Of a DNA stretch of 64,000 bases, positions 53,426 through 63,241 are shown one piece after another. Source of the DNA: Ectocarpus siliculosus (taxonomy: Eukaryota; Sar; Phaeophyceae; Ectocarpales; Ectocarpaceae). How positions within the stretch are numbered: position 1 is the stretch's first letter; each line of letters starts with the position of its first letter. The DNA lies in assembly GCA_000310025.1 (NCBI GenBank), contig FN647790.1, forward strand, positions 341,515 to 405,514. The letters run 5' to 3'. A program made the translations under genes and the position numbers. A model generated the notes under the pieces. The model made no database searches and was not told the DNA's origin. It saw nothing but the letters and a program-made list of their open reading frames with translations.

Positions 53426-55612
53426 GACCGTTCCCTCCCCCACCCCTCCTAGCTCCCCCGCCCCCACCCCTTCTAACCCCCCGGCCACCACCGTGGCTGA
53501 AGAATTCGGCAGCACCGCGCCGCCGCCATCACCAACACCGCTACTGGGCGAGAGACCGCCGTCGGCGGGAGGGCCAGGGGCGGGGGCAGGAGGTCTGCCT
53601 CCGATGCCGTCCCCGGTCACATTCCGCCTGCAGTTGTTGTTTTCGCAAGAGCAGACCGTTCATAGCAGGACAACGTTGACGGCAGCAGGCATCGACGCAG
53701 AAAAGAGTGATCTGGTTGAGAAAAAAAAAATCAGCGTTACCACACATTTTCAGGGCTGCAACTTGGACTGTACATGCGCCCCCCTGCCAACTAGCACCAG
53801 TACATATGAACGAGCTCGATCATATCTGCGAAGAGTTCCAGCTGTAGTTGCGATCCACTCTTTTACCAAGGGGTGAATACACAATCTCTGGTGTTCTTCA
53901 ATTCTTCAACTGCAGAGTACCAAAAACGTGATGTTCGTTGCCGGAGTAAACCTTCGAGCCATAGCCGAGGCGCTCAAAGTTTCGAGATATTCAGCTTGCT
54001 TTCGACGCAATTGGAGGTATTGGCATGCCGCGTTGTGCTGGCCCGCTCCCTCGCTGCGTTGCTGCCGTGTTTAGTATTCTTGTCGCTTGTGGCCCTGGGT
54101 CCTGGCGATGGTGATCCTCATTCTAAAATGCAGACATTCTGTAGACTATACCGCCGGCTGTCGCCAAGAGTATTCTCCCTCGGACAACGCCAAAGGCGTC
54201 AAACGCGTCTCACGGCTGCGTTGGGGATCTCTCTTTCTCGCGACAATTTGCCCCGTTGCTTTGAAGTTGTCGTCTTCAATGTACAGTACTGCTGTATACC
54301 GTATATGACACAAGATAACACACCCCCTGGACCGATTTTCAAAGCTCGATTACTCCACGACGAAGAGGATGCATAAACGAAACAATACATGTTCGAAAAC
54401 CTCTCGACGAGACGGTTCCAACGCCGCCGTTTTCGGCGCTGTGACTCTTCCTGCTGTTGAGAAATCGAGCTTTGAAAATCGGCCCAGGGGGTGTGTTATC
54501 TTGTGTCATATACGGTAATAGACGCGACGTCCTGCAGTATTAAAGTGGCAGTGACAGGGATGCATGCGTACCATGCAAACAAATACTATTTGGCACCTTC
54601 GGGAACGAAACATAAAAACCTTGGTTGATTCAGCCCGAGCTTTCCATGAGGGGAGACGTTTTCGCGATATGACAACCTCCCCGAGAGAAAACCCATGGCG
54701 TGTGAGGTACTGCTGCAAGTGCACGTTGTCTCGCCGTTAGGTCTACTACTGTAACGAGCCGTCCGTACTCTTCAAATATAACATTTCCAGAGGGTGCTAC
54801 TGACAGAGCCCAACTCTGTGGCTCACCTTGAGGTTCTTGAACAACAGTCGAGTTATGGTTGAGAGCAACGCAGAGGAAGCTAGAACTTGTGTTGGAACAT
54901 GATGTGAGTGTTCCTGTTGGTTGTACAAGAGTACTACATACTGCTGTAGGGGTCAACTGCGATACATGTAGTGTACATGCGGTGCGTTAGCCGTTGTCCT
55001 GTGAAGTCTACATCGAGCAGATCTGAACGGGCCTTTTATCGTCAGCACTCACCTAATGGGATTGGCAGCTTTACGCCGGGGCATTACGACAGTCCGAATC
55101 ACCAAGCCCGGCAGGTTCACCAAGTGCAGCAAGCACAGCGAATGAGAAGGACACAGGACAGCGGCTACCAGCAGCAGCAGGCGCTGCGGGGAGTTGTGGG
55201 GAGCGTTGAGGGGGCCTCCAGAGTATATCCCCCCCCCCCCCCCGAAATGTATGCAACGTGTTGGGTGGATCCACGACGATCTCTGATCTGCTCTGTGCTG
55301 CGTAGGTCATCAAAGTGCACGAAAATAAGAAATGTCGACTGGATGTATGCCTCATGAGCTTGGCCTCTCCCTTTTTGGTCAGCAGGAAGCGGACTACAGG
55401 ACACAGTAGGAAAGGTTTATTTTGCACCTGCTGGTGGTTGGTTCTCTCCTTGGGGCCCATTGGATCGATGAAGAACGTTCTGCAGAACGGTGCTTGTGCC
55501 GTGCGGCAACTTCACGACCCCCTCCGATGCAAGTCCCACACTTCACTGTCTCCTGCTGCTCACCCTCTACTCTGCCACCAGTACAGTCGTGATATAGTCG
55601 CTCGACATAAAC
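53426..55612. other. intergenic region between divergent SHPRH and TerD genes
   Basis: It should hold both promoters. No exon is supported except a GC-rich stretch at 53426-53640 that is open on both strands and may be SHPRH leader. One intact inverted-repeat element (54299-54515) lies in the middle. No TATA-like or other shared motif is obvious. Confidence 0.5.
54299..54515. repeat. 217-bp MITE with 53-bp terminal inverted repeats and TA flanks, copy 3
   Basis: The ends CCGTATATGACACAAGATAA and TTATCTTGTGTCATATACGG are perfect reverse complements. The arms run about 53 bases with one mismatch. TA lies on both sides (54297-54298 and 54516-54517). It has no coding capacity. TA duplication and size fit a non-autonomous Tc1/mariner-type element; the youngest-looking of the three copies. 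Confidence 0.8.
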
Positions 55613-58600
55613 ATGTTTGCTCGCGGCGCAGGGAATCTCGAAGAGATCCCTCATGAGTTAGTGCGGCGGTGTACACTCCGATCGCCTGATGACGGTGATG
55701 CGCCTCCGCTCGCTGCTCAACCGGCTGGTCTATCCACTCTTTTCGACACGATGGCTGAAGTGGACATCGGGTAAGAGCCCAATGAGGGCGTGAGAGCTAG
55801 CGAGGGGGAGATAGGCAAATAACTCGCCCGTGTCCTGTAGTAATACGATGGCTTTTAGAGACTTCGGTGAGGTTTCCCACCTCGCGCTTTGGCTGGGTCA
55901 GCGAGGAAAGCTGGCCCTGTTTGGATCCACGACATGATCTATCTTTTTTTGCTACCGGATAAAGGATACACCACGCTGTAGTAGCCCACGAGCCGACGGT
56001 AAACCAACAAATCATCGCCTACAACTCTGGCATACACCTTGTGTTATTGGGATATTGGCTTGTCAGACAAACTGATACTGCAAACGTGACCTATTTTTTG
56101 TGGCACGTCAACGAAAGCGCCCCTTACTGTTTTTTTCTCTCGTCTTCAGATTCCAGTACGTGCAGCAGTGAACAAACAAACGGGCTTTATGGCACGTCAA
56201 CGAAAGCGCCCCTCACTGTATTATTTCTCTCGTTTTGAGACTATCCTAAGACTACAGCTGTCGTGGTCCCGGTTTAGCGTTCCAGAGTGTCACGAAGTTT
56301 GATAACCGCTATTATTATTCAGGGCATCACCGCTACATGCACACCTCTGTTTGCATATACTCCAACCGATGGTGAAACAGCGAATTACAGCAGTATCAGA
56401 GGGCGGAGAGATTCGCATGAGTCCATATGTTGCAGACCGCATGGTCATAATCGCCGCTAGGCTAATATTGTAGAGTTGGTTCACGGGGGACGGCAATCTC
56501 ATCCCCATGAATTAGAAAAAATAGGTTGCTAAACAGCGGTATTGTAAACGACAGAGAGCTTGGGCTCTGGGTGGACTCTCTGAAAATTCGATGTCGGAGG
56601 AGCATGACAGCCAAGAGGCAAGGGAAGGCCCGGATTTGTCAGAAGTCGCCGGCTGTATCGCTCATGAAAAACAACACCCACCTGACGCTCTCTAAACAAT
56701 TTCGCAGTCAACCAAATCGTATCGACCCCGTAACTCACACGCACGCGGCCGCGTGCGGTACTCGTCCTTTTCTCATCCTTTGGCTCGTTGCAGGTGGGGT
56801 TTCCTCAGCCCCAAAGAGTGGTGCAGGACCATGCTGACGTGTAAGCTGGCGAAGCAGTCTCTCCACTTCAAGCACGAGTGGCTGGCGGGACTGGGGTACA
56901 AGCTGATCAAGCAACCCGAGGGGTTCTCCCCCTCCGCCCTGCTGAGCGTTCTTCTTCAGGATCCGGCGTTCAGGTTCGTTCTCGCCTTCCGTCGTTTTGG
57001 TATAGCCCATCGTGCCGCGCGGGAGGGGAAGCAGTTTGTTCGAGGCATGCTTGGGGGTTACATACTAGAGGCAGACACGCCGACGCGGGTTTTCGTTTCA
57101 TCACCATACTTGGGTTAGGCTGAACTCAATATTTCCCGGTAGTTTCGTACCGCACCTTCGGCGCGCTGAAGATAACAACCTCGTAGCATTTCACCCGTCC
57201 AACACCCCCACCAACCGTCCGCTCTTCGTTGTGCGACAACAAAGCGGAGAAACCTGGCGCACGGCACTTCTAACTGGCAAGGTCCACGAGCAAGCGAAAG
57301 CGGGTGCCGCGGCCGTCCACCTTGTCGCCTCTGATACCCCCGCGGATTCGAGAGCATTCTGGACGGCCCGTCTCAAGGCGTTGCTGGAACTCCCCAACTT
57401 CCCGACCGGCGCACAGGTGTGTACGTGTGTAACCTGTATGCGTTTATAGTTGGTTGTGGTACAGTGTGACATCCGTAAAGAGCTTTCCGAGTGCCCCGTG
57501 TGCAGGAGGTTTGACGTGAACTCGTACTCTGTTCAAGAGATAACCAGCACGTTGACAGGGTCCTGAAAACTTCCTTTGAAACGAAGAAGGAGAGTAGGTG
57601 GTTGTGGTGCGATGCTTGGCAAAATTGTTATTGGGTCTGAAGCGTTTTGTGAGGAGCACTGCACAAGACAAATCGCTGATCCGATGTGTAGGCTTGTTCA
57701 CAAACATCGCTTGATGTGCTAAAAATCCATCCCGATGCGCACAAAGAGGGGTACCCAGTCCCATATTTGTCTAGAAACCGGGGCTATGTTGTTGTTTGTT
57801 GCGATGGCGGAAGCGAGGGCCCGGGGTGAATTGTGGGTTTGGTTTGTTTAGTCTATGCAAACGTCGGAGATGTTTCGATCGGATCATTGGACCTGCTTCT
57901 CAACAATAGCATTAGGCTGCGACGCGGTGACGGCAGATGTACAGACCTTTTTTTCCTGCACCCTCTTTGACAGCAACGCCAAAGCAATGCACACTGTACA
58001 CCCTGTGTCCGGTTTTTGAATGAAGATGACGATATATTTTTCTTTTATGTATCCCCTGCTCTTCCACCCTTCTCCGTTCGAACGATTCCATCAACACGCA
58101 GGCGGAAGAGACCAAAACGACGGTTCGCCTTCTTGTGGACCGAGAGACGGGCGCGGGCCTGTCCGCCTTGATGAAGGCGTGCCTGTCGGTGGAAAAGCCC
58201 AACGGAACAACTACGCCGATTGTTCTAGCCACGGTCATCGGCGTGGCGCCTCGCAAACTGGCGGCCCCAGCGCTCCCCGCAGCCAAATCTCCTCCTGCTG
58301 TTCCACCGGCTGCCCCTCCCGCCAAATCGTGGGCTTCCGTCGCGGCTGCTGGCATGCCACCCGCCGCTGCCAAGCAGTCGGAGGCGGCACAAAAATGGCG
58401 GAAAACGGAGAGGAAAGCAGGATCCAAGAAGGTGGGACTGTGGAGAATGGTGACGGAAGAAGAAGTGGAGAAATCCAAGAATATGGAGTTCCTAGACCAC
58501 GAAGGTGAGAAAAAGGCTGGGGAAAGAACTCCTTCCGAAGAGTCGAGCTGTCGTCGTGAGTTCCATTCCTTGGGAGCTTTCAGAACTTTTTTCCTCTTTC

Positions 58601-61600
58601 TTTTTTTTTTTTCTTTGACTAGAATTTGACTCATCGCTGGGTTCGCTGCACCCCTATATTGGGGTTAGCCCGTCCTTGTCTACCAAGGATCTTTCCGGCC
58701 CTCATACCCCCACCGTGTCTGCTGCAGTATAGTACCGTCAAACCCAAAATAAACCTCGTTTCCTCCCTCGGCCCCTACAACGCTATCCCTCAGCCATGTC
58801 ATCCCTCATGGTCAAGGGCGGCGTGGCCTCCATCCGCACGCTGGTGATGCTCATGGGAGGAGTCGCCGTCGATGCCCTGAAGGCGGACGTGAGCACGCTT
58901 CCCAAGCTTAAGGGCCTCAGCATCCCTCGCTCGGTGCGGCGGGCGATGGTCAAGGCCCTCGCGAAAAGCTCGTGGTTCGCTCTCCTGGGCGTCTTCAGGT
59001 GAGAATGAGTGTGCACGTCGATTGGTCGAGTTTCTCGATGATGTTGCTGCTGGGGTCCTTGTTGTTGCTAGTGTGGTATGCACTTCGGTCGTTGCTTGTG
59101 CGTCATGCAGCTTCTCGGTGTTTTCCTGCGTCGCATGACACTACCATTATCTTCGAAGTACAATTTTCATGAAAACCCCACGCTCCCTCAAACGCGACGT
59201 CTGACGTTCACGACTCATTTTCGCTGTCTGCCGTTCGTTGCGCGTTTGTCGATGCTTGATCAATCTGTTTCACGTCGCGGACACGAAAAACAGATTCGGT
59301 GCCTTCTTCAAGAACCTGTTTAAGTGCATCCACATCGCCGAGGTGCTCAAAGACAGGGAGGGCAAAACCAAAACAGAACCGGACAAGGCCAAGGTGTTCC
59401 TCCTCCAAGCGCTTCTGAGGGGCGAGCGCTACCCCCGAACCCAAGCCGCGTACGACGCCCTCGCCAAGGCAGGGAAACCCTGGCACGAGCTCATTGCCGC
59501 CCCTCTCGCTCGGATTGCCGAGGACCCCCTGTTTCGGGTGGCCGACGAATGGACCGCGCCTGGCTTCCAGGAGAGCCTGGCGGGAGCGAAGATCCCGCTG
59601 CCCCGGTGCACGAGCGTGGAGAGCATGCTGTGCGCCCACGGCAACAGAAGAGTCACCTGGCACGCGATTTTCGAGTGCGGCGAGGTTACTTCGAGACAGG
59701 TGCAATATCTGTAATATCGGGGAGGATACGGCGTGCTGTGTGTTAACTAGGCATTACGCTCTCTCGACTGTTAACATTATTTGAACTAGCAAGACAACGA
59801 ATATACTGCCAGCCCATCACCTCCCCCATGCACGTTTTGAATATATTTTCAGATTTTCTAACCATGGTTTTCACCTCCCGGGCGTCTTTCTGTTTGTCCC
59901 CCTTTCAGATTCTCCGGAACGTCGTCAATCTGGCCATGATCAACTTCCCAGTGGAGGTAGTCAAGGTTCAGCTGCTCAAGTCAATCGACGGCGCTCCCAT
60001 GTCGGACCTGCTCAAGGTGAGACCCCGGAATGCCCGGACGACATATGCGTATGTCGTCTCTGCCGCTGTTGCTGCTGCAGTGCTTCCGCTATCGGTGTTG
60101 CTTCTACCTTGTTTTAGCTGCCGTTACTCTCGGATACTACTGTTTCGTTTGCTGTAGATTTATCCCTGGACACGCAGTTAACTGTCTTGTCTTGTTAGTC
60201 ATGTACCCTGCCGCCCTCAACGGTCTGTGGTGTAAGAGACTGGGTGCTATGTTATCCCAGGAACAGCAGATGAGAAAGGACCATGTATTATATATCCTTC
60301 ACGCAAGCCCCTCAGGCAAGCTGGTCACCAACACGCAAGCCCCTCAGGCAAGCTGGTATTCAACACGCAAGCCCCTCAGGCAAGCGCCGGGAGCACACCG
60401 TCGTGTGCTCACCCGGAGGCCCCGCACTTGGTCCTCAACCGCAGACATACCCATCACACCCATACTTCCCATACGCGTATCCCCCACAGAGGATGCACAG
60501 ATCGCACTCATATCCAAGTACCACAAACATGTCTCTTTCGGGTGAAAGAGAAAGGAATCAGTTTCAGTTTAGGTGTCGGTCAGTCAAGCAAATCAGTTCA
60601 CTCTACCTGTCCCTCCTTCTCACCGAAAACGGTCGCCGCGCCGCCACACGCCCGTCAGGTGCACACCTTGCTCAAGAAGACGTTCACTAGTACCGAGGTG
60701 TCGGTTCTCGGCCAAGAAGCGTTCGAGGCGTCCTTCAAGGCCTTCAACAGGATCGAGGCCGACAACAACGCAGTCGAAGAAGACGCCGCCAACCCTTCCC
60801 CCGCGCAGGCGGCGGCACCGCTGTCGCGGAGGGCGCGACGCAAGCGCAAACAACCTCAAGCAAACAACAGGCCGAACGTCCAACTCGCCGCCTTCTTGGA
60901 CCAACAGGCCGAAACCGCCGAGAAGGTTGTGCCGCATGTCCACCCGGAACCACCGCCGAGCAAGAAATCGAAAACCGACGGCGAGGCTTGCCCCAGTGGG
61001 CCGGTTGTGGACGGGGCCGACGCCGGCGCCGCGGCAGAGGTTAAGGAGGGTCCGGACGAGGTGAGGGTGATGCGGGAGTACAGCGTGGCGGACAAGAAAG
61101 GGCAACGGCACCAGATCGTCCGGCCGCGCACGGTTTCGACCAGCTTCGGGCAGCCGTGCGTCGACGCGTACGTCGGCCTGGTGGTCTCGGCGCTGTCCCA
61201 GAAGATGGATCAGCTAGGCTCGCTGCCGGCGTTGTCGTCGCCTCTCGCCAGAATCCCAGGCGGCGCCCGGGGGGACTCGCCCGTTCCTATGGACGCGGAA
61301 CAAACCAGGGACGACGGGTCTTGTGTGGAGGCGGGCGTCATCGTGGGGGCGACCGTTGCAACGGACCAAAAGGCCCGGCCCGCCAAGGAATCAGAGTCAA
61401 ACCCCGGCGAGGCTGGAGCGGAGGGTGGCAACGATAAAAGCGCGAAGGGAAACGGCGTCGTTGGCGTGATATCGTACACTGAGGAGCTGCGCGAGAACGT
61501 CGTCAGGACGGGAGTGCCGCCGCCGCTGCCCAAGTACACCAGGGCCCAGCTGTGGAGAGGAGAGGACCTCTGCCTGGATCAGCTCGGGGCCGGGGGTATG

Positions 61601-63241
61601 AAGGAACTCTTGGTCGGCATCACTTGGTGCGAGCCAAAGGGATCTCGCGACAGGATCGACCTTGACCTGTCGGTGATGGTGAGCTACAATGAATGACTAG
61701 AGACGCCTGCAGCGTTAATGTTCAATGCAACATCCTTGTGGCGGGGGCTTCATCCTTATTGTTGGAGAAGGACTCTCGTGAAGAAACCGGTCTTCTCCGC
61801 CTTTATGTTCTGACGGATACCGGACGTTTCACTCGATGCATCGCCGTTGAAACGTGTGCCAGGTGTACGATTCCGACTGGAACCACCTGGCCGACTGCAG
61901 CTATTCGACCCCGAACCTATCCATCGCTGGTGTACAGCACTCGGGCGACGTCGTGACCGCGCCCTACCCCGACGGCGCTCGCGAAACCTGCACCATAGAC
62001 TTCGCCAAGCTCAGAGAAGGGTTCCCGAAAGCCCGCTACATCGTCCTCGCCGTGTACAGCTACTCTCGCCAGAAATGGGACGATCTAGAAGATGCCTCGG
62101 TTTTCGTGGCAAACCCCCACGTGCTGGGTACGGGCCCCGGGGGCATGTCGGTCATTTGTGCGGCGAGACTGACGGGTTCCGCCACGACCAGTGTCGCTGG
62201 ATACCTCGACCTTGGCAGCCCAGGCATGTCCGACGCAAAGGTGCCGCAGGGAGAAAGCGTCTTCGGCATTCGCCAAAGCGTCCCGGAGAGGAAAGAACCG
62301 GCACCAGCTCCCAGCAACGACGCGCGTGTGCACTTCATTTTCACCGACCAAGAGGCAAGGATCGGCGGCGGTGGACACCACGCACTGGGCTCCAAAGATA
62401 CCGTGGGCACAATTCTGTCGAAGGTGCGTTGTGCGTGGCCCGTAGTCGGGAGATGAACCTTACGATGGCGCAGATCCTGCTGTGCAGAGGATGGCGTTTG
62501 AAATTATGTTCACCTATCAGCCACCCAGCCCCCTTGTTCTCGGCGCATGCATCAAAGTGATACAATTCTGCTGTTTTAATAGGAGAAACAATCGGTGACG
62601 AGTGTTTGCATTGCGATCAGGGGGTCAAGTCTACCATAAGACCACCCTCTCTTGCATTCGTTTGCACTGTCGTCGCGCGTGGAAAACCGAGACAGGTGGA
62701 AGAGTCGCGCAAGAGTGCTGGGAGCCAGAGCCTGGCGGACGCGGCTGCTTTCCAGGCGGCCCTCGCGTGCGACACGGCTCGCATCATCCACGAAGAGCGA
62801 AGCCAGGGTCCGGCTACGCCCACGTTCAGGACCCTGGTTCGGGGGGACGGCGAACCCCGCTTCCGCTTCTACGAGCGGATTGCTGCTGCGCTCGAAGACT
62901 CAAGTCCGATCGCCCCGGCCGCACTCAAGAAGAAGGCCGGCGGGGGTGTCGGCACCTATCCCGCCGCGGCCCTCGGTTCAACCGCCGGCCACGTCGAGCC
63001 GCAGCACACATTGTTTTTCGGCGGAGATTTGGACGACTGGCTCGAGGTGACGCGCCAGCACGAGATCCGAGCTAAGGGGGGCAAAGGCACGCTGACCCTT
63101 GTGAACGTGCGGTCTGCCGAGAAGGGCTGGACGAAAGCCAACGAAGGCAGGGTGCTGAGGGTTAACGGCGCGAGTTCGTACGAGGAGTTGACGCAGGCAG
63201 TGCGCGAGGCACGTGGCGGTGGTGGCGGTGGTGAGAAGTGA
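55613..63241 (+). CDS. multidomain protein with C-terminal TerD domain, 10 exons, 1,286 aa
   Basis: TerD proteins belong to bacterial tellurite, phage and chemical-stress response systems and bind calcium; in eukaryotes the role is unknown. Exons: 55613-55770, 56794-56973, 57143-57416, 58102-58504, 58794-58998, 59294-59699, 59909-60016, 60659-61678, 61863-62423, 62696-63241. All phases close (3,861 nt). The start MFARGAGNLEEIPHELVRR has an in-frame TAG just upstream. Residues about 892-1003 form the TerD fold: MKELLVGITW, then RIDLDLSVMVYDSDWNHLAD, GVQHSGDVVTA, ETCTIDFAKL and ARYIVLAVYSYS. The acidic DLDLS and HSGD positions are kept. Upstream lies RRARRKRK (about 635-642), a likely nuclear signal. 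The N-terminal 570 residues (WGFLSPKEWCRTMLTCKLAK, WHELIAAPLARIAEDPLFRV and others) and the last 180 (TLFFGGDLDDWLEVTRQHEI) are unrecognised. The donor GTTCGT at 56974 is weak. The TerD call is firm; function is not. Confidence 0.85.
56101..56240. repeat. direct repeat, two 50-bp copies 89 bp apart
   Basis: GGCACGTCAACGAAAGCGCC followed by CCT(T/C)ACTGT and TTTCTCTCG occurs at 56102 and 56191. It lies in the first intron of the TerD gene. Confidence 0.8.
60300..60385. repeat. 32-bp tandem repeat, nearly three copies
   Basis: CACGCAAGCCCCTCAGGCAA begins at 60300, 60332 and 60364 with almost no divergence. It lies in the intron before the large TerD-gene exon at 60659. Confidence 0.9.

Follow-up and report, generated by a model that had tools for sequence, protein, structure and literature searches.

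An intron-bearing Ectocarpus siliculosus gene as a candidate relative of bacterial TROVE-TerD proteins

We analysed a 64,000-nucleotide stretch of the Ectocarpus siliculosus genome (GCA_000310025.1, contig FN647790.1, positions 341,515 to 405,514; hereafter the window), focusing on a forward-strand gene at window positions 55613-63241 whose predicted product carries a TerD domain. With moderate confidence, we read this protein as a eukaryotic, RING-less and linker-expanded relative of the bacterial TROVE-TerD proteins of the MXAN_6230/SCO0854 type, and as a putative RNA quality-control or RNA-damage stress factor that would bind RNA. Three segments of the protein are co-linear with a long bacterial and phage family, namely a helical TROVE-like middle, the TerD domain and a conserved C-terminal tail, and the middle and tail score above all shuffled sequences. 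Judged by these alignments, the protein therefore belongs to a wider TROVE-TerD superfamily that has the helical part, TerD and tail in this order. It falls outside the strict definitions of PF02342, NF041916 and Ro60 (on score, RING and vWA), and its homology is at the superfamily level.

Three co-linear segments

The TerD domain is the best kept part of the algal protein in the family comparison. It covers residues 875-1002 (61547-62114), is split by intron 8 (61679-61862), and is recognised by Pfam, NF041916 and hhalign. The Pfam TerD model (PF02342) matches at E 2.9e-5 and 24.1 bits. The NCBIfam model NF041916 (MXAN_6230/SCO0854) matches at E 4.3e-26 and 91.4 bits, short of its equivalog cut-off of 600 bits. 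The D-x-D-L-S and HSGD motifs sit in invariant columns of an alignment of nine proteins, and hhalign against a 38-member family alignment covers residues 899-1174 at E 6e-22. An earlier note, made from the sequence alone, had placed a TerD domain with DLDLS and HSGD at about residues 892-1003; these matches and the register of the motifs bear it out, and the Pfam search that it proposed does return TerD, though under the curated cut-off. None of the 19 aligned bacterial genome members shows a PF02342 match up to E 1, and the Pfam TerD model is therefore weak for this branch. The same model found nothing at E 0.001 in six frames of the whole algal genome, its own locus included, because an intron divides the domain there. 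NF041916 recovered this locus at 1.4e-12, together with three places at E of about 0.02 that match its RING positions 108-159 alone.

In a comparison reaching beyond TerD, hhalign with a 32-member alignment matched residues 899-1173, 351-473 and 175-200 in the same order as in the family; the match at 175-200 is not significant. The helical TROVE-like middle (residues 351-473; exons 5 and 6, interrupted by an intron; 58829-59492) scored 33.0 against the 32 members, compared with 25.8 for the best of 150 shuffles and 22.5 for the best of 28 unrelated window frames. Against the 38 members, the same residues fell on family positions 284-374 with a score of 41.7, and the longer segment 345-615 scored 40.0 where the best of 100 shuffles reached 24.7. 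The Pfam TROVE model touches residues 498-554 (exons 6 and 7; 59565-59944) at a score below its cut-off, with E 0.0023 and 17.6 bits for the whole protein and 2.5e-4 and 20.8 bits for the segment alone. The tail (residues 1076-1174; exons 9 and 10; 62334-62902) was found by both hhalign and HMMER. Residues 1003-1286 alone gave 43.1 by hhalign (best of 100 shuffles, 23.6) and 14.0 bits by HMMER (best of 300 shuffles, 3.5). Past residue 1183 no relative was found, and the C-terminal segment has no Pfam match up to E 10. In PDB sequence searches, the whole protein matched no chain and the middle matched one, at E 0.7. The earlier note had assigned the first 570 residues to no family, which holds for residues 1-340 but has to be given up for 351-473, where the bacterial family matches, and is qualified at 498-554 by the sub-threshold TROVE match.

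The algal protein is RING-less, since CxxC occurs nowhere in it; the Pfam search gave no RING match up to E 10, and residues 1-340 hold four cysteines. From the LHP-type helical anchor to DLDLS it spans 493 residues, compared with 205-344 in the 36 of 38 members in which a simple pattern located both anchors. Its extra length is mostly linker, which includes a basic, nuclear-signal-like patch at residues 635-642 (60827-60850). That patch is the sole pointer to a nuclear role, which would be a predicted function.

The bacterial and phage family and its descent

A protein search of plasmid records returned 17 records, with every match inside residues 863-1048 of the algal protein. In a scan of species genomes there were 157 matching stretches, and 125 of them encode relatives. 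Eighty of these 125 were kept; most are from Streptomyces or further Actinomycetota, and Myxococcota and Duganella are also represented. Frames extracted for 24 of them run from 800 to 1,248 residues, stop to stop, and one (L023) is cut by a contig end. With a Variovorax member as the query, 31 plasmid records matched, 24 of them at 80% of length or more, adding Vibrio, Hymenobacter, Segatella, Prevotella and Mycolicibacterium. Annotated members have 692 to 921 residues. A viral-contig scan gave five relatives of the TerD part. The two phage members come from Rhodococcus phage Weasels2 (L103:85-2163) and Lactobacillus phage LpeD (L104:1-2130); one was fetched whole and one lacks its start in the fetched stretch, and neither has a Pfam match up to E 1. 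Long proteins with TerD in their last third are common in bacteria, and the earlier note's view of bacterial TerD as short is not supported, given a long bacterial and phage family with a helical TROVE-like part, TerD and a tail.

The algal protein shares this order with the MXAN_6230/SCO0854 family (NF041916), being co-linear at residues 351-473, 899-1002 and 1076-1174. It differs in its score (91 of the 600 bits needed), in its long linkers and introns, and in the RING: Prok-RING_4 is found in 19/19 aligned genome members and in four of eight plasmid members (the others show a weak partial match or none), whereas the alga has none. When searched against the PDB, the family profile matched 178 sequences; the 60 listed all match at its RING and are chains of RING or similar zinc fingers. 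Members that lack a Pfam RING match (Niallia, Streptomyces NBC_01724, Weasels2 and LpeD) resemble the algal protein in this respect and in having TerD. Nevertheless, the algal TerD is closer by BLAST to RING-bearing members, with scores reaching 78.6 bits, than to RING-less ones (52.8 bits or less), most of the RING-bearing sequences having been fetched on account of their resemblance to the algal protein. The RING may have been lost in the alga or gained in bacteria.

Structure prediction for one bacterial member gave a Ro60-like fold plus a TerD-like fold (3ibz, 2kxt). In the L033 model, the conserved tail behind TerD (model residues 745-877) was assigned no fold. The algal protein differs from Ro60/Rsr in having TerD in the place of vWA: it has no vWA_Ro60 match up to E 10, and two Rsr proteins match that model at 2.1e-18 and 2.1e-16. 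Its direct match to an Rsr profile is not significant, while the family as a whole aligns with the Rsr TROVE profile weakly (E 0.056), in the expected register (250-348 with 85-177). The likeness to the TerD of Ter operons consists in the DLDLS and HSGD motifs and in the predicted fold of the family's TerD; the difference is that ordinary TerD proteins are short. Behind HSGD these have an acidic loop, which reads GDGDDE in a Pseudomonas plasmid TerD and EGDDE in a phage TerD, in contrast to APYPDGARE in the alga. Calcium binding of TerD is stated in the entry title of 2kxt, and the letters of the algal loop differ from those of ordinary TerD.

We placed the algal TerD in a tree of 42 rows comprising the algal sequence, 38 bacterial and phage family members and three ordinary TerD proteins. 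The algal sequence and the 38 members split from ordinary TerD with support of 99/97. Within this group the algal sequence falls outside the 38 members (85/87), on a branch of length 1.75 whose placement the tree program flagged as unsure. The 24 genome rows were picked from loci matching the algal sequence, which biases any measure of closeness. Recent transfer from a sampled bacterium is unsupported, given the position outside the 38 members, the long branch and the unsure placement. The earlier note had argued against recent transfer or contamination, and an intron-rich single-copy gene with this placement agrees with it. We reject the idea that a short TerD was recently fused to an unknown protein, because there is a co-linear bacterial family. 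The combination of TROVE and TerD is, on the alignments, old and common to alga and bacteria. A long family in bacteria and phages has its parts in this same order, so the middle, TerD and tail probably came down as one unit. That TerD lies inside a large intron-bearing eukaryotic gene is confirmed, but the suggested capture of a bacterial module by an unrelated protein gives way to shared descent, for which the co-linear matches outside TerD speak.

A literature search on TerD in Ectocarpus gave nothing related, and one on MXAN_6230 and SCO0854 gave no match, most subscription papers lying outside the search. The available portions of PMC7159879 and PMC7824862 do not describe a TROVE-TerD fusion. 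A TerD domain in a eukaryote may already have been published, a paper on the Leishmania flagellum (PMC10953051) being among the literature matches, and the bacterial TROVE-TerD architecture may likewise already be known.

RNA-related surroundings and rival explanations

Several bacterial relatives lie beside RNA-related elements. In the Variovorax locus, rtcR adjoins the family member, and an exact sigma-54 site (TGGCACG-N4-TTGCA) lies at L004:3402-3417, 56 bases before the annotated start of the family gene. This is the sole exact site among 124 loci; loose matches occur in four of six other loci scanned, none of them exact. An RNA ligase gene lies no more than 4 kb away in three near-identical Vibrio loci. 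On Hymenobacter and Segatella plasmids, the family gene is immediately preceded by RNAs of 112 and 123 bases that Rfam calls tRNA, and GGUCAA and AUUACC are opposed in hairpins in and around these RNAs. The hairpin module occurs in two and three copies within 400 bases upstream at these two loci and at 0/35 others, and nine of 4,000 shuffles of the two upstream stretches held any module. The Y-RNA-like hairpins, together with tRNA-like RNAs that have long insertions, span L107:7598-7895 and L108:7615-7955. We take their look to be that of YrlA-type Y RNAs.

To our knowledge, the biochemical role of TerD is an open question. In the portions available, PMC7790460 and PMC11277228 describe Ro60/Rsr as binding Y RNA and misfolded RNA, and place Rsr of some bacteria within an RtcR-controlled RNA-repair operon. 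The former also gives YrlA a tRNA-like domain, and the latter, a review, covers Ro60 of animals and of some bacteria. Recognition of nucleotide-like signals by TerD is suggested in parts of PMC7159879 (eLife 2020) and of a jumbo phage review (PMC7824862). From the rtcR, Y-RNA-like RNA and RNA ligase neighbours, we infer that the algal protein is probably an RNA-binding stress or quality-control protein with a TerD sensor. Like Ro60/Rsr, its TROVE-like part would bind small RNAs that are structured or damaged. TerD, in the place of the vWA domain of Ro60, would sense a ligand; proposals for Ter systems point to a metal ion or to a nucleotide-like signal. The protein would serve in RNA quality control or RNA-damage stress, and its long charged linkers may be a eukaryotic addition for localisation. 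A more far-reaching version, doubtful but possible, is a working eukaryotic Ro60-like RNA particle with a TerD sensor instead of vWA, its own Y-RNA-like partner and an RNA-damage response shared in outline with bacteria. Were it true, the particle would connect RNA surveillance with the so far unexplained TerD stress domain. A eukaryotic gene with both TROVE-like and TerD parts, some of whose bacterial relatives neighbour an RNA-repair regulator or Y-RNA-like RNAs, offers the testable hypothesis that TerD does the signal sensing for an RNA-surveillance ring.

A number of results weigh against the relationship or its RNA-related interpretation. The TerD score is 1.2 bits short of the curated Pfam cut-off of 25.3, and the TROVE scores of 17.6 and 20.8 bits compare with a cut-off of 23. 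Against a TROVE profile of eight Rsr proteins, the algal protein scored 15.3 where the shuffle maximum was 26.7. By HMMER, residues 1-860 reached 3.3 bits against the 32-member family and the best of 300 shuffles 3.2, so they do not rise above shuffles. Residues 1-340 have no supported homologue, and segments 712-766 and 848-898, alike by eye, fail to beat shuffles by hhalign. The Ro60-like fold is predicted for the bacterial member alone. As for the surroundings, rtcR is named at one of 12 annotated family loci fetched, and Y-RNA-like modules lie beside two of 37 family loci. ARAGORN makes no tRNA call on the Hymenobacter and Segatella RNAs. The hairpin pattern was picked after inspection of these two loci, and over all fetched loci it occurs nine times (five of them here) against 6.2 expected, so only its clustering speaks. 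The window itself has no RNA family at Rfam curated cut-offs and no Y-RNA-like module by pattern search.

Some of these results would also fit a protein in which only TerD and the tail descend from the bacterial family, with an unrelated eukaryotic protein (the N-terminal 890 residues) fused ahead of them. No significant family match was obtained for residues 1-340, for residues 480-615 or for the pieces tested from 560 to 898, and HMMER does not separate 1-860 from shuffles. We nevertheless think such a fusion unlikely. Residues 351-473 align with the family in the correct order and none of 150 and none of 100 shuffles scored as high, the TROVE match lies just behind them, and the corresponding part of the bacterial relative has a predicted Ro60-like fold. 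Another rival accepts the TROVE-like ring but makes it a ligand- or ion-sensing scaffold without RNA binding, resembling a Ter-type stress sensor. The divergence of the TROVE part, whose score against Rsr lies below shuffles, and the better preservation of TerD would suit such a scaffold, while the RNA-repair or Y-RNA-like neighbours of some bacterial relatives count against it, and we assign it a low probability.

The model could also join two genes, with exons 1-4 belonging to an upstream gene and the downstream gene starting at the in-frame ATG at 58796. This ATG lies two bases past the first base of exon 5, codon scoring does not support exons 1 and 3, and no homologue was detected for residues 1-340. 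Yet the frame is open through exons 1-5 with GT-AG borders, the model frame scores best in exons 2 and 4, and bacterial members too have about 280 residues ahead of the helical match. We think a joined pair improbable and retain a single gene related to the TROVE-TerD family.

Gene model and repeats

The ten exons splice into an open frame of 3,861 bases with no internal stop, giving the 1,286-residue product. All nine introns are GT-AG, with sizes from 169 to 1,023 bases. A search of the 189-Mb genome with the whole protein matched this locus alone, exon by exon (up to E 10). The ten-exon gene with closed phases described earlier is thus reproduced exactly, with a single stop. Exon 1 (55613-55770, residues 1-52) has an ATG start, an open frame and a GT donor, and exons 2 (56794-56973) and 3 (57143-57416) have AG/GT borders. 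Exon 4 (58102-58504), also with AG/GT borders and an open frame, encodes a Pro/Ala-rich and then a Lys-rich stretch. The spliced open frame continues through exons 5 (58794-58998), 6 (59294-59699), 7 (59909-60016), 8 (60659-61678; linker and then the first part of TerD) and 9 (61863-62423) to exon 10 (62696-63241), which holds the stop codon. Codon scoring, trained on exons 8-10 and comparing six frames per exon, ranked the model frame top in eight of ten exons, three of these eight being the training set. Exons 2 and 4 are among the eight; exons 1 and 3 were left undecided.

Repeats occur in and near the gene. Intron 1 has a 40-base direct repeat (56097-56136 and 56186-56225, 90% alike), and intron 7 has three direct repeats of 32 bases (60300-60395). 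Upstream of the gene lies a 62-base inverted repeat (54297-54358 and 54456-54517) with arms that are 95% complementary and 97 bases apart; at a guess, it looks like a small transposable element.
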